A stretch of DNA of 37,114 nt from a virus. The stretch spans positions 1-37,114 of IMG/VR virus record IMGVR_UViG_3300021964_000199. One strand, given 5' to 3'. This document shows positions 8,049 through 29,056 of this stretch, piece after piece. The notes under the pieces are model-generated. The model worked only from the letters and a program-made list of their open reading frames with translations, ran no database searches and was not told the origin of the DNA. The translations under genes were made by a program, and so were the position numbers. Position 1 is the stretch's first letter. Every line of letters starts with the position of its first letter.

Positions 8049-9298
8049 TATTTTCTACCCATCATCCATTTTAAATACTCTGCCTGAGTATCAGCTATTG
8101 TTTTAGCTGTATTAGATAATTCAGACTGACTTTCAGCCTGTTGTTCTAATTCATCAAAAGCTTTTTGTCTAGGGTCTTCAACCTTAAACTCAGGTTTTAT
8201 ATCTTCAAACATAACATATTGACCATCACGTGTCATTTCTTCTGGCATAGTAGATATTGTAGGCCCAGTAAAATAATTCATTACTTCACCTGCACGTAGA
8301 CTTTTATCCTGTGCAATTAACGCATCTACATATGGTGTCCATTTACGCATGACACCTAAAGCTAATTCTTCTTTACGACTATCACTTAATTTATCACCAG
8401 TTATAGCAGTCCAATATTCATCTAGTTGTTCTTCTAAATCTAATTGATTTGGTTTAATATTTTTAGCTCTAATTTCAGCAGCTTTAGCTTTATCCATTTT
8501 ATAATCTGCTGCATCGCTTTCTGATTTTCTAACTGTAAGAAATGCATCCATAGCATTAGAAAATATTTCACGACTTAATATTTGTTCTTTGTTTAATTGA
8601 TTACTTCTGTAATCTAAACCACCAAAGAATTTATTAATTTCGTATGCAATAGCACCTTCATTTCTAGCTTGTTCTTCATTTTGTACAAATGATGTACGTG
8701 CAGGAGAACCTTCGTACCAATCTTGATATTCTTGATTTGCATAATCTAGTACTTGATATATAAAGTTTTCTGTAACAATACCCATATTTCCATTAACTTC
8801 ACTACCTAAATCTTCTTCGTCTATATATCCCATATTTATTGCTGCTGATTGTATTTTAGAAATATCAGATTGTTTGAGTGTTTGTATAAAAGTTTCTACA
8901 AAATTTTCTGCAGGAAATATACCTTTTTCTAAATCAATATCTATAGTTTTAGGGTTACCATCTTCACCAATAATAGGTTTACCTGCATCATCTTTTACAA
9001 CTACTTTTCTTACATTTCCAGTAGTTTGTAATCCACTACCAATAGTCCAAGAACCATCTTCATTTTGTACTATTCCAGGTACTGATGAATCTACACTTGG
9101 TCCAGAAACATTACTAAATAAATTAGTAAATGCATCGTCATCTCTGTCTTCTTGTATATAAAACTTCAATAATTCAGCGTCATTGACTGTACCACCAAAA
9201 TCACCAGGATTAGCTATAAAATCTGCAAATGTAAAACCTTCTATTCCAAGGTTTGCTGCAATTATAGCTTCTAGACGTTCACGTTTTTCTGGTGACAT
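8048..9298 (-). CDS. Helical virion-block protein
   Basis: 416 residues, acidic, helical, no cysteine. It opens with a basic helix (MSPEKRERLEAIIAANLGIE), has a beta-turn segment with NEDGSWTIGSGLQ, and ends in a coiled-coil-like tail (FDELEQQAESQSELSNTAKT). Directly downstream of the 1982-residue gene with a TAATG junction. No recognised domain; the likely role is structural, alongside the giant protein. Confidence 0.5.
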   Translation of the reverse strand: MSPEKRERLEAIIAANLGIEGFTFADFIANPGDFGGTVNDAELLKFYIQEDRDDDAFTNLFSNVSGPSVDSSVPGIVQNEDGSWTIGSGLQTTGNVRKVVVKDDAGKPIIGEDGNPKTIDIDLEKGIFPAENFVETFIQTLKQSDISKIQSAAINMGYIDEEDLGSEVNGNMGIVTENFIYQVLDYANQEYQDWYEGSPARTSFVQNEEQARNEGAIAYEINKFFGGLDYRSNQLNKEQILSREIFSNAMDAFLTVRKSESDAADYKMDKAKAAEIRAKNIKPNQLDLEEQLDEYWTAITGDKLSDSRKEELALGVMRKWTPYVDALIAQDKSLRAGEVMNYFTGPTISTMPEEMTRDGQYVMFEDIKPEFKVEDPRQKAFDELEQQAESQSELSNTAKTIADTQAEYLKWMMGRK

Positions 9299-15246: not shown

Positions 15247-15693
15247 TTACCTTGGTGCTTCTTGATATCTTGTATTCTTTAATTGTCTTATATAAATATT
15301 TGTTGGGTCACGTTCTTCTAGTACGTCTAAAAATATATCTACATCATCAGCAGCTAAAGCTATTCTATCTACTCCTAGGCCACCACCAGTAGCACCACCA
15401 GCTCTAGGGTCTTGTCCTTGTAATTCTGTACCAGCAAACACTTGTGGTTTAGCAGACTTAACTATTGTTTGAGCATCTGGTTGTGTTCTAGGTAATCCAT
15501 TAACAGCTTTTTGACCAGCAACAAATGCTTTGTTTTCGTTATAATCAGCGTCTGGCAATCTACGTATAGGTTGTTTTACATTAGCAGGTCCACCATCAGT
15601 TCTATTCATACCTGGACCTGCACCAGGTCCTGCAGCTTTAACAAAAGCTGGTTTCTTTGGAGTTCTTTCTCCACCTCGTCTATTTTTGGTCAT
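15247..15693 (-). CDS. Basic, glycine/proline-rich small virion-region protein
   Basis: 148 residues. The N-terminal half is disordered and basic (KNRRGGERTPKKPAFVKAAG, then GPGAGPGMNRTDGG), and the C-terminal half folds into an acidic helical piece (DRIALAADDVDIFLDVLEER) ending in RQLKNTRYQEAPR. AAAGGA lies six bases from ATG. It lies between the 52-residue gene and the giant virion gene. Possible head-packaged or joining protein; family not recognised. Confidence 0.5.
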   Translation of the reverse strand: MTKNRRGGERTPKKPAFVKAAGPGAGPGMNRTDGGPANVKQPIRRLPDADYNENKAFVAGQKAVNGLPRTQPDAQTIVKSAKPQVFAGTELQGQDPRAGGATGGGLGVDRIALAADDVDIFLDVLEERDPTNIYIRQLKNTRYQEAPR

Positions 15694-15839: not shown

Positions 15840-17624
15840 CTACAGTCCAAACGCAGCTGCAATACTAGGAGGTTGTCCACCAGCAGCTTGCTGCATCATT
15901 TGTTGTTGCATCATAGCCATTTGCTCTGCAGTCATTTGTGGTTCTTCAGGAGTATAAAACTGTCTGAATATTTCTAATATAGCTGCAGGATTTTCATATA
16001 CTGCAATTGCTGCCATAGTAGCTTGTGCATCACCTTGTGCAGACCTTTGTAACAATGCATCAAACAAAACATTTTCTGCTTTATTTTTACGAATACGTTC
16101 TTGTACTTTTTGTATATTTTCTAAACCATCAATATTGTCTTGTAATGTTTCTACATCAATTACACCAGCTTGCAATAACTGCAAACCAGTAACAATTTTT
16201 TGTGGTTCATCAAAACCAGCCATAACACCATAGACACGTCTAGTTCTATAATCGCCACCAATATCTTGTAGTGGTGTATAGTTTTCAGAAAATGCAGTAC
16301 CATTCAAATATCCTGCCATAGGTTTTCTACCTATAGCTTGTGAGTATGACAATACTGTATCCATTTCTAAACGTTTAGCATCCATTTCTACAAGACCATG
16401 TTTTATGATTTCTCTATATTCATTAATCATTAATGACATAGCACCATTAAGTTCTTGTAGGCCTGCTCCTGTAACAAATGAGTTAGGTGACTGTGCATCG
16501 TCAGTAACTGGATAACCACCTACTAAACGAAGTTGTCTTTCTAATCTATCAATTTGTTGGAACAATTGATATGGCATATTGTTCTGTGGTTTAGAAACTT
16601 GTGTACCAGGAGCTAGATAGTTAACAGCAAATCTACCTTTTCTATATTGTCCTGATTCTATCTCTCCTGATATGTTAGTTTCTGTAAACACAGAATCTTC
16701 CATAGCTATTGCTGACATAATATTTATTTTTGCCATCATAGCCATTAGACCTATAACGTGGTCATATTGACCTTTTAACATATCAAAAGAAACACGTTTA
16801 ACAAATACAAATGGTGGTGTAGATAATACGTTAGGTATAAAATCTAAAATTAATCTACGTTCTGGGAATATAATGTATGTACCACCTTGGTCATAATATT
16901 CAATAACTCTTACACCTTGTGATGTATTATCTTCCCATTGTTGTTCTCTATAAGTATCGTATGACATAAACGGTGTAGCATAATCGTTATACTCCTCACC
17001 TGTATCATCATCATCATCTTGTTTTAATATTTGTTCTGCAAACTCAGGATATATCTGTGCAAGTTTATACCTAGGTACTCTACGTACAACTGCTAATTCT
17101 CTTGGCTTTTGGTCAGGACCAAAGTTACCTGGGAATGTATCATAAGGGTCACGTAACTCTGCACTAGGATAATAAAAACCATTCTTATCTCTTTTAGTTG
17201 TAATTACCCAAGCACAGAAACCATAACCAGGTAGCCATCTAGATGCTTGTGCTAACTGTAAACTTAAATTTTGTTTTTCATCGTAACTTGTAACAATACG
17301 TTCTAATTTTTCTGCTCTAGTTTTAGCTCTTGCAGAATCTACATCATTAGGTACATCTACTCTAACGTTAGGTACACCTGATATTTTTTGTGCAAGTCGG
17401 TCAATACCTGATTGCAACATGTTGGGAGCAGGTAATAAATCAGCATCTGCAGTTTCCATTGTGTCACCTAGTAATGCTTTTATACCTTCTGGACCACCAT
17501 TTAAAATAGCTTTAATTCTAGCTTTGCTTACTTGTCTATCTTTGACATTACGACCAGATGTAAGATTAGCTGCATTAGCTATTACTTCTTTGTAACTTTT
17601 AACATCTAAATTTTCTATGCCCAT
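15840..17624 (-). CDS. Portal protein
   Basis: 594 residues placed directly after the terminase, overlapping it by ten bases. Portal-like features are a helical N-terminal part with ADADLLPAPNMLQSGIDRLA, a wing segment with ASRWLPGYGFCAWVITTKRD and ELRDPYDTFPGNFGPDQKPR, the central helix VIGLMAMMAKINIMSAIAME, and a C-terminal crown rich in Q and M (EEPQMTAEQMAMMQQQMMQQ). Length and gene order fit a portal of the podovirus/siphovirus type that forms the DNA channel vertex. The call is based on overall pattern and order rather than one diagnostic motif. Confidence 0.8.
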   Translation of the reverse strand: MGIENLDVKSYKEVIANAANLTSGRNVKDRQVSKARIKAILNGGPEGIKALLGDTMETADADLLPAPNMLQSGIDRLAQKISGVPNVRVDVPNDVDSARAKTRAEKLERIVTSYDEKQNLSLQLAQASRWLPGYGFCAWVITTKRDKNGFYYPSAELRDPYDTFPGNFGPDQKPRELAVVRRVPRYKLAQIYPEFAEQILKQDDDDDTGEEYNDYATPFMSYDTYREQQWEDNTSQGVRVIEYYDQGGTYIIFPERRLILDFIPNVLSTPPFVFVKRVSFDMLKGQYDHVIGLMAMMAKINIMSAIAMEDSVFTETNISGEIESGQYRKGRFAVNYLAPGTQVSKPQNNMPYQLFQQIDRLERQLRLVGGYPVTDDAQSPNSFVTGAGLQELNGAMSLMINEYREIIKHGLVEMDAKRLEMDTVLSYSQAIGRKPMAGYLNGTAFSENYTPLQDIGGDYRTRRVYGVMAGFDEPQKIVTGLQLLQAGVIDVETLQDNIDGLENIQKVQERIRKNKAENVLFDALLQRSAQGDAQATMAAIAVYENPAAILEIFRQFYTPEEPQMTAEQMAMMQQQMMQQAAGGQPPSIAAAFGL

Positions 17625-19534
17625 GGTGCTTCATTCATTTCTGTCAATTTATAATCTCCATAACTAGGGTTATAGTCTAACCCTATGTCAGCTGCATGCT
17701 CTTTTTGCATACGTCTAAAAACCTTCATTGGAAACCAACTAGCCATAACTATATCAGTTTTTTCCTTGTTTCGTTTAGAAACAGGTTTACCATCAAAGTA
17801 TAACAGTTGTTGCCTGTATTGCTGTACTTTTGCATTTGACACACCATCACCGACAGGTAAATGTATACGTCTATCTTCAAATAAGTCTGCCATAGCACCT
17901 ACACCATAAAGTGGGTCATGTTTGTTTTTTCCTGTTAAATGACCTTGTACAGTTATACCAGTACGTAATGTAAATTCTTTTATACCTTCATCCATACGAA
18001 TAGCTGATTGAAATCCGTTTTCTTCTACTATCCAATGTCTACAGTCGTACTTGTGTAACCATTCAGCTATTTGGTCAAGTGCAGCTCTAATACCACCACC
18101 ACGTTTGTTTTCTAAATCAATTAAATATAATTCACCTCTGTACTGGTCTATACCCCAAAGTACTGCAGCTTGATAACCACTAGATGCAGGGTCAAGTCCT
18201 GCTACTAAATATAAATTTTTATATACTTGCCCTAACACTAAATCAGGCCTCATGCATTGGTCTAAAATATTCATTGTAAATATTTGCGTACCTTCTACAT
18301 ATGCCTGATTAAAATAAACCATTTCGAATGTCTGTCTACCACCTGTAGATTCAGCAGAATGCAACCTAGACATTAACCATTTGTAACTACGTTTAGTAGG
18401 CCATAGCATACAATCAAAATGTTCATCTTCTTCATGTTCTGGTGTTGTACATTCTAAACTATGTGCTGTTTCTACTATGGATGTAAAATTATCAGAACGT
18501 AACAAATGATTATATAAATCATCAGGATGTTGTCTAGAACCAATTACTACTACAGCAGTATGTTCTTCTTTACGACTTGATAAAGTAGTTGTCCACCATT
18601 GTCTTGTACTTTCTCTAGCACCAGGTTGTTGTGTAGTCTGATGGTCCTCAATGTCGTCTGCAATAATTATGTCACAGTCACGTGATAGAATTTTACCACC
18701 CTTACCTACAGCTACCATAGTTGGAGATTTAATACCTGCTACTGTTCTAGTACCTACAGTAAATTGATTTTGTGACCAGTTTTTACCTGACCTGTTGTCT
18801 GGTTTAAAACTTGTACCTGGAGGACAGTATGCATCTTGTAATTCTTCGTTAGTATCTAGTACGTCAAGTACAGCAGATAATGCGTTTTTAGCTATATCCT
18901 CGTTACCACCTACCCACATAATTCTTACATTAGGGTTTTTACATATCTGATATACAGCAAAGTGTATTAATAATTCTGTTTTACCATGTCTAGGGGGGCT
19001 TAATATTAATAATTCTTTACCGTTATTAATAGAATCTATAATATTATTTATCCAATTTGTATGAAAGTCCGCGGTTTCGTATTTCTTTCCTAGTTCTGTT
19101 CTAAAGTATTTGTCGCGGAAGCTAGAAAAATTTTCTAATGCTGCTTCAGCTTCTGCGGATAGTTCCCAATCTTCTGCTGCAATTTCGTTGCGTATGTCAA
19201 TCTTGTAAGCAGCAAGCATACGACTGACAGTAGCCGATGTGCAACCAAGGAGGGAAGCCGCCTCAGCTACTGCCATGTCGCCAGTTGCAACTTCGTCAGC
19301 TAGACCTTCGCTTACAAAAGCTCGGTAATACTGACCTCTACGCACTGATGCGTAGTCACCGTCATCAGAGTTTCTCTCTGCATTTATAGGTTTATCTATT
19401 CTATCGTTATGTCGCTTGTCGGCTGCAAACTGTCGTTTCTGGCAGGTTGGTGAACAAAATTTACGCTGTTTGCCCTTTAATTTTTTCCTACATCCACTTG
19501 CAATGCAAACAACATTTTTATTGGTATCAACCAT
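17615..19534 (-). CDS. Terminase large subunit with N-terminal zinc-finger/HTH extension
   Basis: 639 residues. The packaging ATPase shows Walker A LSPPRHGKTELL (about 178-189) and Walker B DIIIADDIED (about 288-297). The RNase H-like nuclease has AGLDPASSG (D448), IVEENGFQ (E504/E505) and KTDIVMA (D594). Ahead of these sit about 140 extra residues with C10-x4-C15-x11-C27-x3-C31, the last part (KFCSPTCQKRQF) typical of small zinc fingers, and a helix-turn-helix at about 86-113 (DMAVAEAASLLGCTSATVSR). That looks like a DNA-recognition module normally found on a separate small subunit; no small terminase gene is seen next to it. GGAGG precedes ATG by an unusually long 12 bases. Confidence 0.93.
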   Translation of the reverse strand: MVDTNKNVVCIASGCRKKLKGKQRKFCSPTCQKRQFAADKRHNDRIDKPINAERNSDDGDYASVRRGQYYRAFVSEGLADEVATGDMAVAEAASLLGCTSATVSRMLAAYKIDIRNEIAAEDWELSAEAEAALENFSSFRDKYFRTELGKKYETADFHTNWINNIIDSINNGKELLILSPPRHGKTELLIHFAVYQICKNPNVRIMWVGGNEDIAKNALSAVLDVLDTNEELQDAYCPPGTSFKPDNRSGKNWSQNQFTVGTRTVAGIKSPTMVAVGKGGKILSRDCDIIIADDIEDHQTTQQPGARESTRQWWTTTLSSRKEEHTAVVVIGSRQHPDDLYNHLLRSDNFTSIVETAHSLECTTPEHEEDEHFDCMLWPTKRSYKWLMSRLHSAESTGGRQTFEMVYFNQAYVEGTQIFTMNILDQCMRPDLVLGQVYKNLYLVAGLDPASSGYQAAVLWGIDQYRGELYLIDLENKRGGGIRAALDQIAEWLHKYDCRHWIVEENGFQSAIRMDEGIKEFTLRTGITVQGHLTGKNKHDPLYGVGAMADLFEDRRIHLPVGDGVSNAKVQQYRQQLLYFDGKPVSKRNKEKTDIVMASWFPMKVFRRMQKEHAADIGLDYNPSYGDYKLTEMNEAPWA

Positions 19535-20084: not shown

Positions 20085-20116
20085 GTAAGTCTGTTATCCT
20101 TGCGGAACAGACTTAC
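20085..20116 (+). promoter_or_regulatory. Shared-loop hairpin 1
   Basis: GTAAGTCTGTT and AACAGACTTAC form eleven perfect pairs around the loop ATCCTTGCGG. It lies 35 bases before the first early ATG and has no T run, so it is not a simple terminator. The loop fits the pattern WWMCTTNYGD shared by six hairpins in the early region whose stem sequences are unrelated. Confidence 0.8.
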
Positions 20117-20151
20117 TCTGTTTCTCTAGTTAACTAAAAAAGGAGATTAAA

Positions 20152-20397
20152 ATGCTAGAAATTAAGGACGCTGTAGAAGTTCAAGAAACAGATACAGCTG
20201 AAAAGACAGAGCCAACTGCTAAGACTTTCGAGTGCAAGGCGGTTACTCACGAAGGTGATAGAAACGTGAAGTTAGGTTTTAACTTCCGAGAAAGTCGCAG
20301 CAAAAAAGATGGCGATGGCTATACAGACTATCAATTCTGGTATAGAAATCTATGTAAACCTTGTGGTCAACAAATCCTATTAGAAGCCCAAAAGTAA
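20152..20397 (+). CDS. First early protein, small cysteine-bearing orphan
   Basis: 81 residues after an AAAGGAG site. The first 25 residues are acidic and look disordered (MLEIKDAVEVQETDTAEKTE); the rest contains one cysteine (FECKAV) and a C-x2-C pair (LCKPCGQQ), which could hold a metal. It is the first gene of the plus-strand region, followed by a strong terminator, so it is a monocistronic unit. First early genes of phages often encode host-takeover proteins; function here is unknown. Confidence 0.65.
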   Translation: MLEIKDAVEVQETDTAEKTEPTAKTFECKAVTHEGDRNVKLGFNFRESRSKKDGDGYTDYQFWYRNLCKPCGQQILLEAQK

Positions 20398-20407
20398 TAG
20401 GTATGTA

Positions 20408-20449
20408 CAGTATGTCTGGTACTAAATGTGCCAGACTACTGTTTTTTTT
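20408..20449 (+). terminator. Rho-independent terminator
   Basis: CAGTATGTCTGG and CCAGACTACTG pair over eleven bases with one bulged T, and eight T follow directly (20442-20449). It ends the first early unit 10 bases after the stop codon. Confidence 0.85.
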
Positions 20450-20481
20450 AAATGAAACTATCTACAAAAACGTGATAAGTC

Positions 20482-20515
20482 GATACAACGCTTTTACTTA
20501 CGTAAGCGTTATATC
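20482..20515 (+). promoter_or_regulatory. Shared-loop hairpin 2
   Basis: GATACAACGCTT and AAGCGTTATATC pair with one C-A mismatch around the loop TTACTTACGT. It ends about five bases before the AGGAGG site of the next gene, at the head of the second early unit. Loop pattern as in hairpin 1. Confidence 0.75.
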
Positions 20516-20530
20516 TGTATAGGAGGAATA

Positions 20531-20839
20531 ATGATTAATAAATTTAAGCAATTGAATCAAGTTCGAAAGAACTTTTTAGAGATTAATTGGCGAAGTTATT
20601 TGTATTATAGATATGTATATAAATATTTATGGCGAATTATAGATAAAAAATACATAGCTATGGAAAAAGATGGCTTAAAACAATTTACTATCAAGTTTAA
20701 TAAAGAATTTAAAACTGATTTTACAGAAGAAGAACTTGATATGTTGCATGGCGACTACATAGTAGGCGCTGTTTTTTGGGATTCAATACAAGAAGATATT
20801 GATATGATGTTAGAAAGGCGAAATAATGAGAAGAGATAG
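20531..20839 (+). CDS. Early orphan protein, basic and aromatic
   Basis: 102 residues with AGGAGG six bases before ATG. The first half is basic and tyrosine-rich (NWRSYLYYRYVYKYLWRIID), the second half acidic and helical (TDFTEEELDMLHGDYIVGAV). No motif recognised. Heads a three-gene unit; its end overlaps the next gene by 14 bases. Confidence 0.6.
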   Translation: MINKFKQLNQVRKNFLEINWRSYLYYRYVYKYLWRIIDKKYIAMEKDGLKQFTIKFNKEFKTDFTEEELDMLHGDYIVGAVFWDSIQEDIDMMLERRNNEKR

Positions 20840-21077
20840 ATATTATAAAAATTGGTGGAATAATTACAAACAAGTACCTATAGGTAGAAAAAGGTATTAC
20901 GAAACATTACGTAAACCTAGATTTGTTTGGTTACATAAAAAATTGTTTAAATTAAGCGACTGGTTATATGACCTTGCATATAACATTAGAAAATTTAACA
21001 AGGAATATAACGAAATTGAATACCAAAAAATGCGTTATAGAACTATATATAAAACAGTGGAAGTTGAACAATGTTAA
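20826..21077 (+). CDS. Early orphan protein, very basic
   Basis: 83 residues, rich in K, R, Y and W (RYYKNWWNNYKQVPIGRKRY), possibly nucleic-acid binding. The start lies inside the end of the previous gene with GAAAGG eleven bases upstream. Ends in EVEQC. Function unknown. Confidence 0.55.
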   Translation: MRRDRYYKNWWNNYKQVPIGRKRYYETLRKPRFVWLHKKLFKLSDWLYDLAYNIRKFNKEYNEIEYQKMRYRTIYKTVEVEQC

Positions 21078-21238
21078 ACGCAATTAAACTTGATACACTT
21101 CGGTTAGATACTGGTAAACCATTGATAATCATTGATGTTGATGATAACAAAAAAAACAGTATATTTTTAACTATAAAAGATACAGAAGTGTTATCACTAT
21201 ATTTTAAATATGCACAAGAAGTACTAGATAACAAATAA
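21071..21238 (+). CDS. 55-residue early orphan
   Basis: ATG at 21071 overlaps the previous stop by seven bases, in another frame. The product starts MLNAIKLDTLRLDTGKPLII and ends YFKYAQEVLDNK: a beta-hairpin-like front followed by one helix. It is supported by tight packing between two other early features and an intact frame. Function unknown. Confidence 0.5.
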   Translation: MLNAIKLDTLRLDTGKPLIIIDVDDNKKNSIFLTIKDTEVLSLYFKYAQEVLDNK

Positions 21239-21239
21239 C

Positions 21240-21269
21240 GTTGTCGTATATCCTTTTGAATACGACAAC
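21240..21269 (+). promoter_or_regulatory. Shared-loop hairpin 3
   Basis: GTTGTCGTAT and ATACGACAAC form ten perfect pairs around the loop ATCCTTTTGA. It starts two bases after the previous stop and ends 19 bases before the next ATG. Confidence 0.8.
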
Positions 21270-21288
21270 TTTCATGAAAGGAGATTAT

Positions 21289-21555
21289 ATGAAGACTGTT
21301 GTATGTGGTTATTGCCAAGATAATGTAGAAACAATGCGTGATAGATACTGGTATCACTCTACTAAAACTGGAACAAAGTATCCATTGTTTATACATGGTA
21401 GCTGCGGTGTAAAGATATTTGAGCAAAACGAAAATATCTGGACATTTCACAATCTAGGCAAACAACATAGCAAGGCTATTATCACACCTACTGAGATGAA
21501 AAAAGAAGTAGAAATTGATGAAGTAATCTATGAACAGAGTAAGCTAAACATATAA
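21289..21555 (+). CDS. Small zinc-finger-like early protein
   Basis: 88 residues. ATG at 21289 is chosen for its AAAGGAG site; an earlier in-frame TTG would start inside the hairpin. Residues 5-8 are C-G-Y-C and a histidine and cysteine follow in FIHGSCGVKIF, a plausible zinc site, next to an aromatic segment DRYWYHSTKTGTKYPLF. The tail is acidic and helical. Function unknown. Confidence 0.6.
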   Translation: MKTVVCGYCQDNVETMRDRYWYHSTKTGTKYPLFIHGSCGVKIFEQNENIWTFHNLGKQHSKAIITPTEMKKEVEIDEVIYEQSKLNI

Positions 21556-21563
21556 TGTATAGC

Positions 21564-21721
21564 TAGAGTGTATATGCCCTATGTACACTCTATGGTATAT
21601 GTACGTATGCTTATGGGGACGAACCATATAAAAAAGGCAGAGCCTACAGTACGAGAGCGAATGATGAAGCAGTCGTGCCACTGGAGTACGAGTAATCTAG
21701 TAGCTTGTTGACTACTGTAGG
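21564..21721 (+). ncRNA. Structured RNA or leader, two-domain
   Basis: In the 192-base gap before the next gene, TAGAGTGTA (21564-21572) pairs perfectly with TACACTCTA (21584-21592). CCTACAGTA (21643-21651) pairs perfectly with TACTGTAGG (21713-21721), enclosing 61 bases with smaller complementary words (CAGT/ACTG, TAGT/ACTA) and the word TAGTAGCTTGTTGACTA. There is no open frame and no T run after either stem. It may be a leader of the downstream gene or a separate small RNA; it is not a tRNA, as no T-arm is found. Confidence 0.55.
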
Positions 21722-21747
21722 AGGATTTTAAATAGAAAGGAATAACT

Positions 21748-21960
21748 ATGGATATAGTAGCAGTAAGACAAGCAATAGAGGTCTTGTCACCATTATTAAA
21801 TGCCAATCAAGTTGGTCAATTAGAAGCAATGGTAGGACAAGGTATCATTAATTATCATGAGCAACAAGCTGAAAGTCGTTATAAAAACGATTTAAATCAG
21901 TTAAGTATAGATATGAAACTAGATGTAGATGCATCTGATTTTGGAGAGCCACCATTCTAG
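21748..21960 (+). CDS. 70-residue early orphan, helical
   Basis: GAAAGGA lies eight bases before ATG. The protein is one long helix pair (DIVAVRQAIEVLSPLLNANQ, GQGIINYHEQQAESRYKNDL) with an acidic end DASDFGEPPF. No cysteines. It stands alone between the two-domain RNA element and a terminator hairpin. Function unknown. Confidence 0.6.
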   Translation: MDIVAVRQAIEVLSPLLNANQVGQLEAMVGQGIINYHEQQAESRYKNDLNQLSIDMKLDVDASDFGEPPF

Positions 21961-21968
21961 TTATACAT

Positions 21969-22011
21969 TACAGCGTGCTGTATCCTTGCGGACAGCACGT
22001 TGTATTTTTTT
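21969..22011 (+). terminator. Shared-loop hairpin 4, also a terminator
   Basis: TACAGCGTGCTGT and ACAGCACGTTGTA form thirteen pairs (one G-T) around the loop ATCCTTGCGG, identical to the loop of hairpin 1. Seven T follow directly, so it should terminate the upstream unit. It is the only member of the loop family with a T run and lies 60 bases before the next ATG. Confidence 0.85.
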
Positions 22012-22063
22012 AAAAGTGTCTGTTCACAATTACGTGATAACGACAATATGAAAGGAGATAGTA

Positions 22064-22285
22064 ATGTCAAATGACTATCAAAATCCCATTTGTGGGATAA
22101 CAGGTAAAGAAGTTCCATGGAATAAAAGAACATGGATAAGTAGATATATTGATGGTGAATTAAAAACAATCCCATTATATCTAGACATAGATGCAGTACG
22201 TGATTTGCATAGGCAGTCACCTACATACAAAGCTAAAAAAGCAGCATCTGAAGTCACTGAACAAGAGCTAGTGTCTACTGAATAG
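22064..22285 (+). CDS. 73-residue early orphan
   Basis: GAAAGGAG lies six bases upstream of ATG. The sequence has one cysteine and a basic middle (KEVPWNKRTWISRYIDGELK), then a helix with DAVRDLHRQSPTYKAKKAAS. The ICGITGKEVPWNKRTW segment recalls short domains with a metal-bound turn, but only one cysteine is present. Function unknown; its stop codon lies in a hairpin. Confidence 0.6.
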   Translation: MSNDYQNPICGITGKEVPWNKRTWISRYIDGELKTIPLYLDIDAVRDLHRQSPTYKAKKAASEVTEQELVSTE

Positions 22286-22294
22286 TAGGCACTA
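22269..22294 (+). promoter_or_regulatory. Hairpin across a stop codon
   Basis: TAGTGTCTAC and GTAGGCACTA form ten pairs (one T-G) with the loop TGAATA. The gene's stop codon straddles the loop and the right arm, and the AGGAGG of the next gene lies seven bases after the stem. The loop does not fit the shared pattern. It may tune coupling between the two genes. Confidence 0.6.
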
Positions 22295-22309
22295 CGCTAG
22301 GAGGTAACT

Positions 22310-22498
22310 ATGCAAGATATAGACAAACAACTTGAATCATTATCTAAAGAACAATTGATAAACGTTATTAATTGGACTAGACGTGATTTAAACAATGCAG
22401 GCCAGAACAGAGAATTAAACGAATTTGTTCGTGGTTGGTGTCGTATGTTATTAGAAGCTGTAGAATATCAAGTTACAAAAGCGTACGATAAACAATGA
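22310..22498 (+). CDS. 62-residue helical early orphan
   Basis: AGGAGG seven bases before ATG. Two helices (QDIDKQLESLSKEQLINVIN, RELNEFVRGWCRMLLEAVEY) with a single cysteine. Overlaps the next start by four bases (ATGA). First of four small translationally coupled genes. Confidence 0.55.
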   Translation: MQDIDKQLESLSKEQLINVINWTRRDLNNAGQNRELNEFVRGWCRMLLEAVEYQVTKAYDKQ

Positions 22499-22638
22499 AA
22501 TGTTCTGTATACAAATGTAATACAGATATTAGTAACAAACAATATCCATATTACGCTGATATAAATAATGACAAAACATATCAATTAGTATGCGGATTTC
22601 ATTATGCTGATTTAAAAGAAAGGAAAAAATATGACTGA
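22495..22638 (+). CDS. 47-residue zinc-finger-like peptide
   Basis: The ATG overlaps the previous stop (ATGA). The order C3-x4-C8 ... C33-x2-H36 (MKCSVYKCNTD and LVCGFHYADL) is a compact C2CH arrangement suited to one zinc ion. It is too short for most gene callers but is well supported by the coupled start and the spaced metal ligands. Possible nucleic-acid or protein contact role. Confidence 0.55.
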   Translation: MKCSVYKCNTDISNKQYPYYADINNDKTYQLVCGFHYADLKERKKYD

Positions 22639-22750
22639 AAAACAAATTAAACAATCATTAAGTTTAATTAACGAAGCGTTACAATTGTTGCAAAAACAAC
22701 TTTCTAATCATCAACAGATATTAAAGCTGTTATTGGAGGAAAAAGAATGA
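22631..22750 (+). CDS. 39-residue coiled-coil peptide
   Basis: AAAGGA lies upstream of ATG at 22631. The product is one leucine-rich helix (SLSLINEALQLLQKQLSNHQ, then ILKLLLEEKE) with heptad-like spacing, so it may dimerise. Overlaps both neighbours by a few bases. Confidence 0.45.
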   Translation: MTEKQIKQSLSLINEALQLLQKQLSNHQQILKLLLEEKE

Positions 22751-22944
22751 CTGTTTACGAATATGTAGATGATAATGCAAAAGCTGATGAAAATTGTTTA
22801 ACTGTTGATTTCTATTTTGATAGCAATGTTACACTTAAACAAGCAGAAAAAATTGTAGATAAAATGGTTGCAGATAATTTTGATAAAATCAAAGCACATA
22901 CAGCAACTATATTTGTCAAATCGCCATTTCTCAGCAACAACTAG
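22747..22944 (+). CDS. 65-residue early orphan
   Basis: ATGA overlap with the preceding gene and TTGGAGG nine bases before ATG. Beta-strand (CLTVDFYFDSNVTL) followed by helix (KQAEKIVDKMVADNFDKIKA) and another strand, a small alpha/beta fold. Last gene before a 573-base non-coding stretch. Function unknown. Confidence 0.55.
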   Translation: MTVYEYVDDNAKADENCLTVDFYFDSNVTLKQAEKIVDKMVADNFDKIKAHTATIFVKSPFLSNN

Positions 22945-22953
22945 AGAAACGCA

Positions 22954-23011
22954 AAGCTACTTACATTGCTAGTATCCCCTTACTAGCCGCAGCCCATAAT
23001 GTAGGTAGCTT
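22954..23011 (+). ncRNA. Upstream stem competing with repeat element copy 1
   Basis: AAGCTACTTACATT (22954-22967) pairs with AATGTAGGTAGCTT (22998-23011) over fourteen bases with one T-G. Inside it GCTAGTA (22968-22974) and TACTAGC (22981-22987) form a second perfect stem with the loop TCCCCT. The right arm reuses eight bases (23004-23011) of the left arm of the large stem downstream, so both cannot form at once, as in attenuators and riboswitches. No ligand or protein is known. Confidence 0.55.
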
Positions 23012-23123
23012 GTAGCACATAAGATAGAACTAAATGACCTCTCGCTTAGACTGGTCAAAGTATGATAACGAACTAAGGCATACACGAAGTTATTTATCTC
23101 AGACTTGTGTGTTACAAGCTATC
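23004..23123 (+). ncRNA. Structured RNA element, copy 1
   Basis: GGTAGCTTGTAGCACA (23004-23019) pairs with TGTGTTACAAGCTATC (23108-23123): sixteen pairs including two G-T. Inside, AGATA/TATCT extends the stem, then TGACC/GGTCA and GTATG/CATAC give two side hairpins, a three-way-junction shape. No reading frame fits. The same outer stem returns in copy 2 with a different interior, which argues that the stem itself is under selection. Confidence 0.65.
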
Positions 23124-23175
23124 TATAATATGTCGACCATTTGGTAACCAATCCATTAGGTCTAATCATATATTA

Positions 23176-23323
23176 GGTAGCTTGTAGCACATAGGACAAT
23201 GGGTGTTATTACACGACTTAAATGCGTGGCATTGAAATAATATGCAAATCGCTCTCTGATAACATCATTGAGTTATCGCTTCACTGATAACATCATTAGA
23301 TGTTTTGTGTGTTACAAGCTATC
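23176..23323 (+). ncRNA. Structured RNA element, copy 2
   Basis: Both sixteen-base arms (23176-23191 and 23308-23323) are identical to those of copy 1. The interior is longer and unrelated; it contains the direct repeat CTGATAACATCATT twice (about 23256 and 23284), GATAAC/GTTATC and AACATC-ATTA-GATGTT hairpins. The flanks TATTAGGTAGC and CTATCTATAA are partly kept too. Tandem copies with conserved stems and free interiors suggest two related small RNAs or two binding platforms. Confidence 0.65.
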
Positions 23324-23388
23324 TATAAATATATAGCTAATACTATGAACTGTACGTCATAACGTGTTGTGAATAGGTGGAAGTAATA

Positions 23389-23455
23389 GCTATCAGAATT
23401 GTGTTCTAAAATATGCGTAAATGTTAATCAATCAGCATTTATAGATAGCAATTCT
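23389..23455 (+). ncRNA. Pseudoknot-capable segment
   Basis: GCTATC (23389-23394) can pair with GATAGC (23444-23449), and the adjoining AGAATTG (23395-23401) with CAATTCT (23449-23455). The order a-b-a'-b' permits either an H-type pseudoknot or two alternative stems; the right-hand words share one base. TAAATG/CATTTA (23418-23423, 23436-23441) forms a hairpin between them. It lies just ahead of shared-loop hairpin 5. Confidence 0.4.
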
Positions 23456-23467
23456 AAAGTAAAAGAT

Positions 23468-23505
23468 GTATGACGTGTCGTTACCTTTTGTACGACACGC
23501 CATAC
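23468..23505 (+). promoter_or_regulatory. Shared-loop hairpin 5
   Basis: GTATGACGTGTCGT and ACGACACGCCATAC pair with one mismatch over fourteen positions around the loop TACCTTTTGT. It ends 12 bases before the ATG of the next unit, overlapping the approach to its GAAAGGA site. An ATG inside the left arm (23470) is in frame with the gene but would destroy the leader, so it is not used as the start. Confidence 0.8.
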
Positions 23506-23517
23506 GAAAGGATATAT

Positions 23518-23949
23518 ATGAAATATAATGGTACAAGTATAGATGCAACTAACAGACCTACAGAAAAGTATGACGTTGAATTTGCATTTATATTAGACAG
23601 AAAAGCAAATGATGAAAGTGCTAATTCTGTATATAAAATTACAGTTGAGGCTGTATCTGCAGTTAATGCTATACAAATGGCACAAGAAATTGTATTTGCA
23701 GAAAAAGCTTCAACATTTGCACATTTTCTCATTAATAAAGCAGAAACAGACGAAATGACTGCTGAACAAATAGCACATGAATCAGAACATATTATGAAAG
23801 GTTGGTTACTTGATGACCCTACAGGTATTCAGGTTTTCAAACAAAATGATAGAGAACTGTTACATGGCATAACAGAAGAAAATGTTATGGAAAGTATGCG
23901 TAATGTTGCTAATGATGCAGAAGAATTTCTAAAGGAACAGGAGAGCTAA
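23518..23949 (+). CDS. 143-residue early protein, acidic
   Basis: Start chosen at 23518 for the GAAAGGA site. Strands at the front (KYDVEFAFILDRKANDESAN, VYKITVEAVSAVNAIQMAQE) give way to acidic helices with HESEHIMKGWLLDDP and an EEFLKEQES end. The HESEH could recall a metal site but lacks wider family context. First gene of the unit that holds the AAA/VWA pair; one-base overlap with the next gene. Confidence 0.6.
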   Translation: MKYNGTSIDATNRPTEKYDVEFAFILDRKANDESANSVYKITVEAVSAVNAIQMAQEIVFAEKASTFAHFLINKAETDEMTAEQIAHESEHIMKGWLLDDPTGIQVFKQNDRELLHGITEENVMESMRNVANDAEEFLKEQES

Positions 23950-24254
23950 TGTTACCAGATGGAATGAAACAAGCTAATCCCCCAGATAAGTATGGCGGAA
24001 GAACAGGTAAAAAACCTACATTATTGACAGATGAAAAGGTTAAAGTCTTGTTATCCATGCCAGGCGAATGGTTTATCATAGGAACACGTGATAAGTGGAT
24101 TAGTGGTGTCAAAGCAAATATAGAGTCTATGACACAAACAAATATATCTCATCTTGCAACTAAAGGCAAGTTTGAGATACAACAAAGAAAAAATGAAGAT
24201 GGACAAATAGACGTTTATTGTCGATTTGTTATGTCTACTCTTGAAGAAGAGTAA
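23949..24254 (+). CDS. 101-residue early protein, possibly DNA-binding
   Basis: TAATG overlap with the previous gene and an AGGAG site. The chain reads like a small winged-helix or SH3-type fold: GEWFIIGTRDKWISGVKANI, then TQTNISHLATKGKFEIQQRK and a final strand DVYCRFVMSTL. HLATKGKFEIQ resembles the recognition helix/wing region of replication-associated wHTH proteins, but this is a weak impression. It precedes the AAA ATPase by 15 bases. Confidence 0.55.
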   Translation: MLPDGMKQANPPDKYGGRTGKKPTLLTDEKVKVLLSMPGEWFIIGTRDKWISGVKANIESMTQTNISHLATKGKFEIQQRKNEDGQIDVYCRFVMSTLEEE

Positions 24255-24269
24255 TAGAAAGGAAATACT

Positions 24270-24998
24270 ATGGAAAATAATACAGCTGATTGCTGGAAAT
24301 TAGTTAATTCTGTAATTGGTAAATCAAATCGTATTTTATTATACGGTCCACCAGGTACAGGTAAAACATACAGTGCAGTAAAGACAAATGCACCATTAAA
24401 TATGGATGGTGACCCAAATGTTTTTGCTGTTACTATGACAGAAGATACTGCTAGTGCTAATCTAGAAGGCTTTTACAAGCCTAGTTCTAGTGGTAACTTT
24501 GAGTGGCATGACGGTATTGCAATACAGTCATGGAGAAATGGTGGTCGACTCATAATTAACGAGATTGACCATGCATCACCAGATGCTATGACATTTCTTC
24601 ACGTTATTCTTGATGACCAAGAAATAGCACAATTAACAATAAACAATGACGATAAGGAAACAGTTAGACCAGCTAGTGGCTTTCAAGTTATAGCTACAAC
24701 TAATAGTCCACCAGAGTCACTACCATTGGCACTGAAAGACAGGTTCCCAGTCAAAATACACGTGGATAGAATACATCCACAAGCTATGGCTAAATTCCCA
24801 AAAGAATGGCACAACGTTATTAACGATACAAGTATGGTTGATGACCCAGAGTCAAGAGTATCTGTACGTTCATGGAAAGAGTTCTTTGACCTACAGGTAA
24901 AGGGATTTGATACAGAAATGGCAGCTAAATTAGTATTTGCTGATAAAGCAGAAGAACTTATAGACGCTGTTTCTTTGGCTAAAGCTGATGTTGAATAA
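24270..24998 (+). CDS. MoxR/CobS-like AAA+ ATPase
   Basis: 242 residues with Walker A YGPPGTGKT (25-33), Walker B RLIINEIDHA (93-102), sensor 1 ATTN (142-145) and an arginine finger in LKDRF (R158), followed by a short helical lid. This set and the compact length match MoxR/CbbQ/CobS-type ATPases, which remodel or load partner proteins and work with VWA-domain partners. The VWA gene follows at once, overlapping by eleven bases. In some cyanophages such pairs are annotated cobS/cobT although a cobalamin role is doubtful; no other cobalt-chelation gene is seen here. Confidence 0.88.
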   Translation: MENNTADCWKLVNSVIGKSNRILLYGPPGTGKTYSAVKTNAPLNMDGDPNVFAVTMTEDTASANLEGFYKPSSSGNFEWHDGIAIQSWRNGGRLIINEIDHASPDAMTFLHVILDDQEIAQLTINNDDKETVRPASGFQVIATTNSPPESLPLALKDRFPVKIHVDRIHPQAMAKFPKEWHNVINDTSMVDDPESRVSVRSWKEFFDLQVKGFDTEMAAKLVFADKAEELIDAVSLAKADVE

Positions 24999-26478
24999 AC
25001 CATATCCATATCCAGAAATTGTTACAGGTGAACAGTGGACAGTTAACGAAACAATTGGCGACCAGACACCTTGTACAGACAATTTGAACAGACAAATGTA
25101 TGTTCCAATGGATAGGGAATGTGACATATGCGGCCTTAATCATGGTCGTATGATACGTAGACATGAATTAGGTCATGTCAAGTGGTCACCTAAAACTATG
25201 GGAAAGTTGCCGCAAGGTACAAGACCAGAAGCTATTGAGGTACTAGAAGAGATAAGAGTTAATTATCTTATGTTTCTTAATGGCCTTGGTATCAATGAAC
25301 CTACACAATGCATTGACATAATTGAAGCTAAAACATTTAATTTAATTAATAAAGCTTCAATTACAGATTTGATATTGTATGGTCTTGCTTGTTTTTGGCA
25401 TACTAACAATCCGCATCCAGATGCACCTAGTCATATTAATTTTGATGGGATGACACATCCATATCAAAGGTCTAGTCGTGTAGGTAGTCATGCTTTATCT
25501 CATGAATATATACGATTTAAAGCAATTATGGCAGATGCTATTGTAGATTCTAAATATCATAAAATTAGACAAAATGAATTGCAATTTGTTTTAAATACAG
25601 TTCATACATTTGCTGATAGATTGATACGAAGTAGAGGTACTGCACAAACAAAAGTATCATACAGAAAAGTACAAAAGCTAGCACAAGAATTGTCAGTAAT
25701 ACTAAACACATTTCTTGACAAACCTAAAGCTGATGAAATATTAGCACCTAAAGCACAACCTAGTGCTGGTGGTCAATCAGGTGAAAATGAAGGCGAAAAT
25801 GGTGATGATGCTGGTTCTGGTGATGCAAACGATTTAGAAAAACGTATGCGTCAAAAGTTATCAGAAAAACTTATAGAATATCACACAAGTCAAGGTACAG
25901 GTATGTGGGGGGATATGGAAATACATAAACCACCATTGACTGTTAATTTACAAAGTCGTCTTAAAGGTGCTAGAAATTACAGAGCATCTGATTTTGGTTA
26001 CAATCCTAAATACATTAATCGTTATTGTATTGATAAGAAAATATTCAAACAAAAACAAAATGTATTAGGTGGCACAATTCTAATAGATGCATCAGGTTCA
26101 ATGCGATTTGATGGTGAAGATATATTAGAAATTATGACATTACTACCAGCAGTGACAATTGCTATGTACAATGGTCATAGTTATGATGGTGATTTACGTA
26201 TTATAGCCAAAGGTGGTATGCGTGTAGACCAAAAGTATCTTGATAAATATGCTGGTGGTGGTAACGTAGTAGATGGTCCAGCACTAGAATGGCTTGCTAC
26301 AATGCCACCTAGAAGAATATGGGTATCAGATATGCACGTATTCGGTAGGTCTGGTAGTCATTCATCTGGTGCTAATCTTATTCGTGATTGTTTAAATATA
26401 TGTACAAAACATAAAATTATCAATTTACAAGATATAAATGAAGTAAAGGAACATGCTATTAAATTAAATATGGTATAG
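24988..26478 (+). CDS. CobT-like VWA protein with N-terminal HELGH motif
   Basis: 496 residues. An N-terminal part has C-x2-C (CDIC, 45-48) and a zinc-peptidase-like HELGH (59-63). An acidic, glycine-rich linker (GENEGENGDDAGSGDAND) lies near residue 270-285, and the C-terminal von Willebrand factor A domain has the MIDAS motif DASGS at 367-371 plus a later SDMHVFG. The HELGH plus VWA layout fits CobT-like partners of MoxR ATPases. It probably acts with the overlapping upstream ATPase to unfold, cleave or assemble a target. No separate ribosome site is visible, so translation is likely coupled. Confidence 0.85.
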   Translation: MLNKPYPYPEIVTGEQWTVNETIGDQTPCTDNLNRQMYVPMDRECDICGLNHGRMIRRHELGHVKWSPKTMGKLPQGTRPEAIEVLEEIRVNYLMFLNGLGINEPTQCIDIIEAKTFNLINKASITDLILYGLACFWHTNNPHPDAPSHINFDGMTHPYQRSSRVGSHALSHEYIRFKAIMADAIVDSKYHKIRQNELQFVLNTVHTFADRLIRSRGTAQTKVSYRKVQKLAQELSVILNTFLDKPKADEILAPKAQPSAGGQSGENEGENGDDAGSGDANDLEKRMRQKLSEKLIEYHTSQGTGMWGDMEIHKPPLTVNLQSRLKGARNYRASDFGYNPKYINRYCIDKKIFKQKQNVLGGTILIDASGSMRFDGEDILEIMTLLPAVTIAMYNGHSYDGDLRIIAKGGMRVDQKYLDKYAGGGNVVDGPALEWLATMPPRRIWVSDMHVFGRSGSHSSGANLIRDCLNICTKHKIINLQDINEVKEHAIKLNMV

Positions 26479-26483
26479 TTTGG

Positions 26484-26910
26484 GAAGCATAGTAACTCGC
26501 AAGAGTGCTTATGTAATCCTTTCCATAAGTTAAGCTATGTTCTGTAGTGGAATAGAGTCGTAAGAGAATTACGAACAAGGGTGTCCAGTCATGTCAACAA
26601 TAATCCTATAGTTAACACCACTACGCCCATTTTCATTAAAGGAAGCTGGATAGGCAACAGCAAAGCGTCACCAAGCATTCACCTTAATTTAGCAACACAA
26701 TATTTAGCATAAATTACTGGGCTGTGAATGCGTAGGGTGTAAGCGTGCGTGTGCCTGGAAGCTTCCGATGTTCTATTACAAATTATGTTGGCAAGCGTTG
26801 CCTCTTGTGAGCAAAGCGTGACAGAAGGATGGGCCGAAGTTTAGCGAAACAGGTGCTGTGTATTCATCCTTCGTAGGCAAAGCGTGCGAGAAGAGGCAGA
26901 GCTGCCAACA
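26484..26910 (+). ncRNA. Long structured RNA candidate, four domains
   Basis: A gap of about 465 bases without a gene is filled by consecutive helices. Domain 1: ACTC-GCAA-GAGT (GNRA tetraloop) near 26495-26506. Domain 2: GTAGTGG/CCACTAC (26544-26550, 26618-26624) with TCGTAA-GAGAA-TTACGA inside. Domain 3: a long irregular arm, GGAAGCT/AGCTTCC (26641, 26760), AGGCA/TGCCT, CACC/GGTG, GCATTCAC/GTGAATGC (26675, 26724) and TAATTTAGC/GCATAAATTA. Domain 4: TGTTGGCA/TGCCAACA (26786, 26903), TGCCTCTT/AAGAGGCA (26799, 26891), GAAGGATG/CATCCTTC (26824, 26865) and GTTT-AGCG-AAAC. It is locally less AT-rich than nearby genes. I do not recognise it as tmRNA, RNase P or an intron. Confidence 0.7.
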
Positions 26911-26943
26911 GACATATTTATAAGCTTGATTAAAATTATAAGT

Positions 26944-27195
26944 ATGACTATAATGAAATATATGAATATAGATAAATTGCTTGAAGAAGCAGAAACTGGA
27001 AAGCGTAGTGCAATAGTTGACCGCATCACTGATGAAGCCAAACCATTTTGGCAAGGTTGTGAAGAGCGTGTTGCAGCAGGACGTGAATTAAAACCATATG
27101 TCGTTTCTAGGTTACTTAGAGATGAATTTGGTATCAAAATAAGTGAATCAGCAGTGCGAAATCACTTTCAGAATATAGCAGAAGCTAATGAATAA
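26944..27195 (+). CDS. Small helix-turn-helix protein
   Basis: 83 residues if started at 26944; ATGs at 26953 and 26962 are equally possible and none has a clear ribosome site. An upstream GTG (26884) falls in the structured RNA and is not used. The C-terminal half, VVSRLLRDEFGIKISESAVR followed by NHFQNI, is a helix-turn-helix like those of repressors or small terminase subunits. It overlaps the metallophosphoesterase start by eight bases. It may be a regulator, or the missing small terminase partner. Confidence 0.65.
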   Translation: MTIMKYMNIDKLLEEAETGKRSAIVDRITDEAKPFWQGCEERVAAGRELKPYVVSRLLRDEFGIKISESAVRNHFQNIAEANE

Positions 27196-28246
27196 AAAAG
27201 AATTAGATAAACTATTTGCTGAAGCTGAATCACAAAAAATCGTTGAACTAAAAGCTGATAATGTCAAGCTGTTAAAACAATTAGAAAAAGCTAAAAATAA
27301 AAAAGCTGATATGATTGAAGCAGTTTACGATGCAGTATCTACTAATTTACGAACTTGGGATAAACCTAAAGTTCCAAAGCCTATGCTACACAAACGTAAT
27401 AAGAACGAAGAAGTAGCAGTAGCTGTATTGTCAGATGTTCAATTAGCAAAAGTAACGCCAGATTATAACACACAAGTAGCTGAAAAACGTGTTATTGAAT
27501 ATGCAAATAAAATCATTGAATTGACAAATGTGCAACGATATGCACATCCAGTTAACAAATGTGTTGTACTTGCAGCTGGTGACATAGTCGAAGGTGAGTT
27601 AATATTCCCAGGACAAACACATCTTATTGATGCTAGTTTATATAACCAAGTAACAATAGATGGACCTAGAATATTGACACAATTTTTTGACATATTACTT
27701 GCTAATTTTAACGAGGTAGAAGTACATTGGGTTATCGGTAATCATGGTAGCTTAGGTGGACGTGCTAGAAAAGACTATCATCCAGACTCTAATGCAGATA
27801 GGATGCTAGGCAAGATAATGGATATGGTATATGAAAATGAAAAAAGAATATCATTTGTTATACCAGATTCTGAAGGTGATAATCATTGGTTTGATATTGC
27901 TGATATTGGTAAAGGATGTAAGTTCTTTGTATGGCATGGTGATAATGTCAGAGGACATTCAGGATTTCCATGGTATGGCTTTGGTAAGAAGCTATTAGGT
28001 TGGAAAGCATTAGCTAGTAGAGGTCTTATGCCAGACTTTGATTATGCTATTGCAGGACATTTCCATACGCCTACAACAATGTACGTGAATGACATACGTT
28101 TGTGGGTTAATGGAAGCACAGAAAGCTATAACACATATGCGTTAGAACAATTAGCAAGTATGGGTAGGCCATGTCAATGGTTATTATTTGCAAAACCTAA
28201 TCATGGTGTAACAGCTGAATATCTTGTTAAGTTAAGCGAGAAATAA
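27188..28246 (+). CDS. Calcineurin-like metallophosphoesterase
   Basis: 352 residues. A coiled-coil N-terminus (about 15-50) precedes the metal-binding motifs of the family in order: VLSDVQLAK (D83, with Q in place of the usual H), AAGDIVEGE (D132), VIGNHGS (N185-H186), WHGDN (H250) and AGHFHTP (H291, H293). Such phosphoesterases act on DNA ends (SbcD/Mre11 group), cyclic nucleotides or RNA. The Q at the first motif is seen in some phage members. It could process DNA ends for the Rad52-like recombinase encoded downstream. Confidence 0.85.
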   Translation: MNKKELDKLFAEAESQKIVELKADNVKLLKQLEKAKNKKADMIEAVYDAVSTNLRTWDKPKVPKPMLHKRNKNEEVAVAVLSDVQLAKVTPDYNTQVAEKRVIEYANKIIELTNVQRYAHPVNKCVVLAAGDIVEGELIFPGQTHLIDASLYNQVTIDGPRILTQFFDILLANFNEVEVHWVIGNHGSLGGRARKDYHPDSNADRMLGKIMDMVYENEKRISFVIPDSEGDNHWFDIADIGKGCKFFVWHGDNVRGHSGFPWYGFGKKLLGWKALASRGLMPDFDYAIAGHFHTPTTMYVNDIRLWVNGSTESYNTYALEQLASMGRPCQWLLFAKPNHGVTAEYLVKLSEK

Positions 28247-28260
28247 TAAATATAGGTAAA

Positions 28261-28437
28261 ATGTATAGTATGGAAGACATAAATGTCAAGCCTAAATGGA
28301 AAGTTACAGGAATAGAATATACTGGTTTAGGAGATAAACCATATTTTATTTTGTCAGACGCTGAAGGTAACATAAAGTTACAAGCAGTTAGTCGTGGTGT
28401 AACTAGCCTAAGGGCTACATTACTAGAAGAAGAATAG
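28261..28437 (+). CDS. 58-residue early orphan
   Basis: Intact frame from ATG at 28261 (a second ATG lies at 28270). The product is a small beta fold (WKVTGIEYTGLGDKPYFILS, then AEGNIKLQAVSRGVTS) with an acidic end. AGGTAAA upstream is a weak ribosome site. It ends eight bases before shared-loop hairpin 6. Confidence 0.5.
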   Translation: MYSMEDINVKPKWKVTGIEYTGLGDKPYFILSDAEGNIKLQAVSRGVTSLRATLLEEE

Positions 28438-28444
28438 TTGTATC

Positions 28445-28476
28445 GTACTTTTCTTTACCTTACGTAAGAAAAGTAC
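28445..28476 (+). promoter_or_regulatory. Shared-loop hairpin 6
   Basis: GTACTTTTCTT and AAGAAAAGTAC form eleven perfect pairs around the loop TACCTTACGT. It ends 19 bases before the ATG of the recombinase gene, just ahead of its GAAAGGA site, and heads the last long plus-strand unit. Confidence 0.8.
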
Positions 28477-28495
28477 TTTATAGAAAGGAATTGTT

Positions 28496-29056
28496 ATGGC
28501 TAATAACGTTGATTTGTTATCCCCATTTCCAGCTGAACTAGTGCGTAAAGCACCAGCAGGTAAGTTTGGGGATTACGTACCACACGCACATTATGTAGAA
28601 AGACTACGTGATAGTGGTGTGATATATTCATGGTCATGCGAACCAGTATATGGTATGCATAACGGTGAACAAAGAATAGTTGGTGCTAAAGGCACGATAA
28701 CTATTGAAAATATGGGCAGTTATGACGGCTTTGGAGATATTGATACCTTCAAGTTAAATAGCTCAAAGCACAATGACGGCACTAATCTAAAAGACGCTGA
28801 ATCAGATGCATTTAAACGTGCATGCATGCGATTTGGCCTTGGCGTAGAGCTATGGTCTGGTTCTAAGCAGTCAGAAGAAGAAGCTACAGCAGTAGCACCT
28901 GATGGTTATACACAAGAAATGGCAGAAAAAGATGCCAAAGTTGAGGTAACTAAAGCTGATATGCGTAAGAAAGAGAACAAGCCTACCAAAGAAGATATAG
29001 CACGTATGGAATCAATCATGGATGACATTTTAAATGCATCCGAGGAAGGAAAATAA
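28496..29056 (+). CDS. Rad52/Sak-type single-strand annealing protein
   Basis: 186 residues. Features of the Rad52/Rad22 family: an N-terminal FGDYVPHAHYVERLRDSGVI, the strand EQRIVGAKGTITIENMGSYD with a glycine-rich turn, and the hallmark helix DAESDAFKRACMRFGLGVEL (about 100-119). The C-terminal 60 residues are charged and disordered. Phage proteins of this group anneal complementary single strands for recombination-dependent replication. It heads a unit with two paralogous small proteins and a zinc protein, which may be its partners. Confidence 0.85.
   Translation: MANNVDLLSPFPAELVRKAPAGKFGDYVPHAHYVERLRDSGVIYSWSCEPVYGMHNGEQRIVGAKGTITIENMGSYDGFGDIDTFKLNSSKHNDGTNLKDAESDAFKRACMRFGLGVELWSGSKQSEEEATAVAPDGYTQEMAEKDAKVEVTKADMRKKENKPTKEDIARMESIMDDILNASEEGK

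Follow-up and report, generated by a model that had tools for sequence, protein, structure and literature searches.

What are six hairpins with one loop pattern and unrelated stems doing ahead of the early genes of an uncultivated phage? The window, by which we mean the whole stretch of DNA analyzed here, is a 37,114-base IMG/VR virus record with a GC content of 33.7%. Its late genes lie on the minus strand (among them TerL at 17615-19534 and the major head gene at 3385-4503), and its early genes lie on the plus strand, starting at 20 kb. IMG/VR holds hundreds of relatives of this phage, and the hairpin-bearing phages are a large uncultivated group, mostly marine. No close named phage was found in the phage collection, TerL being less than 60% identical to all records, and the single-strand annealing protein (SSAP) of the window had no match among named phage records. 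Contigs carrying relatives of the SSAP occur in two metagenome bins (MAGs), labeled Actinomycetota and Gammaproteobacteria.

All six hairpins were recovered at the positions, and with the loops, given in the original prediction. They and two genes beside them are as follows.

20085-20116, plus strand: hairpin 1, tip ATCCTTGCGG, 35 nt 5' of the ATG of gene 20152-20397, the first early gene, which is divergent from TerL; MFE -15.2 kcal/mol, z -6.1
20482-20515, plus strand: hairpin 2, tip TTACTTACGT, 15 nt 5' of the ATG of gene 20531-20839 and 34 nt downstream of the T-tail of an intrinsic terminator; z -3.7
21240-21269, plus strand: hairpin 3, tip ATCCTTTTGA, upstream of ATG 21289, which starts the gene of a small CxxC...HxxC protein; z -5.4
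21289-21555, plus strand: gene of that small early protein with invariant C-C-H-C, conserved and often basic in relatives
21969-22004, plus strand: hairpin 4, tip ATCCTTGCGG, 59 nt 5' of ATG 22064; z -5.0
23467-23506, plus strand: hairpin 5, tip TACCTTTTGT, 11 nt 5' of ATG 23518 (gene 6); z -6.2
28438-28483, plus strand: hairpin 6, tip TACCTTACGT, between the stop of gene 28261-28437 and the SSAP gene's SD; z -4.1
28496-29056, plus strand: SSAP gene, downstream of hairpin 6, an anchor for the homology-selected test described below

The predicted confinement to the early-gene strand was borne out by a motif search. The pattern WWMCTTNYGD, which was fitted post hoc to these six hairpins and then replicated in sequence from relatives that had played no part in the original prediction, occurred with a stem score of at least 6 six times on the plus strand of the window and not once on the minus strand; chance expectation per window was 0.02 at stem score 6 and 0.003 at score 8 (2000 dinucleotide shuffles). 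Strong hairpins no more than 65 nt upstream of a start codon were found at 8 of 20 starts on the plus strand and at 1 of 18 on the minus strand. The distances from hairpin 3' end to ATG were also much as predicted, at 35, 15, about 16-20, 59, 11-18, and 12-19 nt for hairpins 1 to 6, respectively. Hairpin 6 can be called intercistronic, since it fills the gap from the preceding stop codon to the SSAP SD.

RNA folding gave z values from -3.7 to -6.2 and changed the picture of the element in several respects. Stems of 10-14 pairs, as originally described, are obtained if G-U pairs and one mismatch are counted, but the perfect runs are 11, 7, 10, 8, 8, and 11 bp. The ten bases first described as a loop are present as given but form a structured tip instead of a single open loop, because the fold of all six hairpins comprises 1-2 bulged nt on the 5' side, an inner stem of 2-3 bp that includes a C-G pair, and a pyrimidine-rich loop of 4-5 bases. 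The stems are indeed unrelated between sites, but the stem of any one site is recognizable among close relatives, where it carries compensated substitutions.

Relatives were informative, as the original prediction had anticipated in proposing a covariance model. The exact motif with a stem was found in 27 hairpins in relatives (a count in which a few contigs were present in both search sets), all on the early strand and each ahead of a start codon. A covariance model built from the six hairpins alone returned about 45 further sites in 80 loci, with a best E of 1.7e-4; all matches were on the early strand but two weak ones, which are reverse shadows of plus-strand matches. Among 22 distinct window-type hairpins, all ten outer pairs were altered on both sides, and the outer-stem covariation score was 0.83 versus 0.20 for shuffled sequence, a score that is biased when taken alone because the rows were picked for having stems. 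An ortholog test drew instead on the 95 nt upstream of starts picked by protein homology only, counting distinct sequences. By this measure, a strong hairpin preceded 75% of SSAP starts (n = 59), 78% of gene 6 starts (n = 23), and 86% of gene 4 starts (n = 29), compared with 3-7% in shuffled sequence, and a hairpin was likewise present in most relatives before the first early gene beside TerL. Starts of the VWA gene (5%), exonuclease gene (10%), TerL (7%), gene 15840 (0%), and gene 29635 (5%) were near background in the same test, and those of the AAA gene (27%) and a late gene at 15247-15693 on the minus strand (33% of 40 relatives versus 8% shuffled) were intermediate. Taken with the shuffles and the covariance model, these results strongly support an element under selection, whose tip is kept and whose stems are compensated.

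Whether this element acts as RNA or as single-stranded DNA, both of which had been proposed, is addressed by the stem mismatches. Near starts, G-U mismatches numbered 126 and A-C mismatches 63, versus 510 and 392 elsewhere (Fisher p = 0.012). This excess of G-U over A-C near starts moderately favors selection on plus-strand RNA and makes the DNA form the less favored of the two.

The tips proved to differ between lineages and to change largely together within a genome. Tips are 9-10 bases long in window-like genomes; L016, L077, and L092 combine a 3-base bulge with a GAC..GUC stem; L019, L023, and L211 have UUCC or UCC followed by GAC..GUC; L068 has 7-base tips; and L024 and L025 have TC/ATC internal loops at later genes. 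The hairpins of these other lineages precede the same genes, yet their tips differ, including forms with a bulge of 3-4 bases and a GAC/GUC mini-stem. Most sites of one genome have a common tip, although some genomes mix two tip types. Within a genome, 44-49% of non-orthologous gene pairs had tips of equal length, compared with 12-15% of such pairs between genomes, a difference that 0 of 500 permutations reached. Loops varying freely, which would have spoken against the original prediction, were thus not seen. Stems are also slightly more similar within than between genomes, so part of the tip coherence could reflect descent from duplicated hairpins. Tips of 9 nt have A-U, U-A, or G-C as their inner pair beside a constant C-G pair, a covariation read from a listing of these tips, as MAFFT misaligned them. 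In addition, one identical tip base differs between the window and L009 at both sites 1 and 4 (ATCCTTGCGG and ATCCTTACGG, respectively), which hints at concerted change. A tip that is shared within a genome and shifts between lineages implies that the stem is a carrier and that the tip is read by a co-evolving factor, probably phage encoded. These findings point to a hitherto undescribed RNA switch for gene control that a single protein reads.

We tentatively favor, at a little under an even chance, a multi-site translational operator for a candidate phage RNA-binding protein, with repression as the simplest sign. The hairpins would be mRNA elements that sit, for a fixed set of early genes, in the leader or in the gap between cistrons, and the outer stem, of about 8-18 bp and free in sequence, would be a scaffold presenting the tip, that is, the 5' bulge, the short inner stem with its C-G pair, and the small loop. 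One phage-encoded RNA-binding protein would read the tip at every site of its own phage and, once bound, would control the downstream genes jointly at the level of translation; the simplest means would be to keep ribosomes from loading, because the SD is usually found a few to about 11 nt past the stem. The SD overlapped the stem in 0 of 147 cases examined, and the median distance from stem to start codon was 20 nt. Since the SD is left free, masking of the SD by the hairpin itself should not be what silences translation, so that either a binding partner or some effect on RNA stability would be needed. Counting against an operator, two window sites precede their ATG by 35 and 59 nt, distances that simple blocking of ribosomes could not bridge. 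A wider arrangement, which we also hold tentatively and consider clearly short of an even chance, would be a phage-wide posttranscriptional regulon in which one fast-evolving RNA-binding protein recognizes bulged tips before about 6-9 early genes per genome across many marine double-stranded DNA phages, with lineage-specific tip-protein pairs.

The C-C-H-C early protein is a possible tip-binding partner, and we offer it as a lead only. Its predicted fold (pLDDT 77) had no significant PDB match. No single gene stood out as linked to tip type; tip similarity tracks general phylogeny, with a correlation (rho) of 0.53 for TerL and 0.50 for the C-C-H-C protein.

An effect on RNA stability would lead to a different explanation, the chief competitor of the operator, in which the hairpins are mRNA stabilizers or processing boundaries that protect processed 5' ends or mark cuts by phage or host RNases. 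We regard this as unlikely, though as deserving serious weight: the hairpins are intercistronic and fold strongly, their C(UUNY)G-type tips are near stable tetraloops, and there are precedents in T4 and phage 7-11 (PMC8948821). Plain stability, however, leaves the bulge, the lineage-specific tips, and the restriction to certain genes unexplained, and many coupled early genes of the same transcripts have no hairpin. Transcription elements, whether terminators, attenuators, or nascent-RNA antitermination signals like boxB or HK022 put, seem improbable. A T-run lies on the 3' side of hairpin 4, and L009 and L010 have T-runs of at least 10 at the same place, so this hairpin may have a double role as terminator of the preceding gene; an intrinsic terminator also precedes hairpin 2. 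Nevertheless, hairpin 1 is ahead of the first gene, five of the six lack a T-run, and none has the U-run directly after the stem that marks an intrinsic terminator, only hairpin 4 having one nearby. Antitermination would need one site per operon, not one before the SSAP gene within a string of genes. No common promoter-like motif was found upstream of the hairpins.

Translation could also be controlled without a protein if CCUU in the loop paired with AAGG of the SD in a pseudoknot that occludes ribosome binding. By inspection, five of the six window tips hold a stretch of at least CCUU that is complementary to the AAGG of the same site; however, CCUU is absent from TTACTTACGT and from the tips of other lineages (CTGACTTAAAAGT), and where stem and SD are closest, 2-8 nt separate them, which, judged from general RNA geometry, cannot bridge a stem of at least 10 bp. 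We therefore consider this mechanism quite improbable. Very improbable, too, are single-stranded DNA hairpin promoters for a virion RNA polymerase of the kind found in phage N4, a role raised in the original prediction and not supported here. The hairpins are near early starts, and there is a late protein of 1981 aa (9298-15246, minus strand) that is conserved among these phages, with identities of 24-73%, and matches nothing in Pfam or PDB. A family search of nine records, whose controls were equally silent, detected no single-subunit RNA polymerase, and a PDB profile search with the 1981-aa protein gave no RNA polymerase match. N4 promoters are DNA, with a stem and loop conserved from -17 to +1 on the template strand and a dedicated polymerase (PMC4496689). 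Window-type hairpins resemble them in standing ahead of early genes but have no such conserved stem and loop sequence, their stems being free; their mismatches favor G-U on the RNA strand, and the recognized part is the tip on the RNA-like strand. Finally, functionless remnants of a mobile or repeated hairpin element might account for several copies per genome and for some stems in one genome being alike, but fixed orthologous positions over large divergence, a single strand, and compensated stems leave next to no probability for this account, which conservation of position nearly refutes already.

For the favored translational operator, the closest architectural parallel is the coat protein operator of single-stranded RNA phages such as MS2, which has an outer stem, a 5' bulge, a 2-bp inner stem, and a tetraloop beside the start codon and occurs as a different variant in each phage; coat protein bound there represses translation. 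The window hairpins match this plan in architecture only; they belong to double-stranded DNA phages, occur at many sites per genome, and have a longer outer stem and another loop and bulge. T4 gp43 and RegA are alike in that a phage RNA-binding protein controls early-gene translation via leader RNA; the gp43 operator is a single leader hairpin about 40 nt upstream of the start, and RegA sites have no clear structure (PMC3014915).

Two further systems resemble the window hairpins in position. T4-type intercistronic CUUCGG hairpins are stable, many-copy phage mRNA hairpins (Tuerk et al. 1988, as described in PMC8948821), for which, as for the gene 32 leader hairpins, a role in mRNA stability or processing has been proposed. 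They are similar in their intergenic mRNA position, small C-G-closed loops, and many copies, whereas the bulge with mini-stem, the lineage-specific tip, and the fixed early-gene starts are features of the window group. None of the six hairpins has a CUUCGG loop, and CTTCGG occurs four times in the window versus 2.9 expected, about the chance level. In cluster K mycobacteriophages, SAS/ESAS sequences are repeated before the starts of a subset of nonstructural genes and include an inverted repeat with a subgroup-specific consensus, as here, but departures from the ESAS repeat do not support base-pairing, and the authors favor DNA binding (PMC3203893). The stems here, in contrast, are compensated and sequence-free, and the 13-bp SAS GGGATAGGAGCCC had no match in the window with up to three mismatches. 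The likeness to MS2-type operators is one of plan, and T4 CUUCGG hairpins, SAS/ESAS, and N4 promoters each differ in at least one defining feature. Rfam gave no match above the gathering cutoff for the hairpins and elsewhere only a chance-level miRNA match (E 0.1); among open-licence papers, none was found that describes the element.

Reports of double-stranded DNA phages that control early translation at multiple sites through RNA structure are rare. If one phage protein reads the tips, these abundant uncultivated phages would be a natural source of many RNA-protein pairs that have diverged from one another, and would clearly exemplify co-evolution between a trans factor and dispersed cis sites; if the regulon exists, nature could supply sets of orthogonal RNA-protein switches. 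Should the hairpins set mRNA decay instead, they would show how phages tune a polycistronic early message.

Other noncoding features were noted in the same region. A perfect 11-bp hairpin at 22269-22294 (plus strand; tip GAAT) includes the gene 4 stop and lies 15 nt before ATG 22310; it is conserved in relatives and covaries in L034, and its tip is unlike those of the six, so that it is possibly of another kind. Past a gene end, a hairpin at 21564-21592 shows compensated changes in relatives and is followed, within 21556-21740, by a stretch resembling structured RNA. About 400 nt without an obvious gene (26480-26900), extending from the VWA gene to the gene at 26949, contain small direct repeats GCAAAGCGTG and had no Rfam match. 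Ahead of gene 6, two noncoding units in tandem, with GTAGCTTGTAGCACATA / TGTGTGTTACAAGCTAT as closing stems, occupy positions 22995-23328 and had no Rfam match; their core, TGTTACAAGCTAT, recurs in 74 of 229 loci, and these units are possibly an unknown phage RNA.
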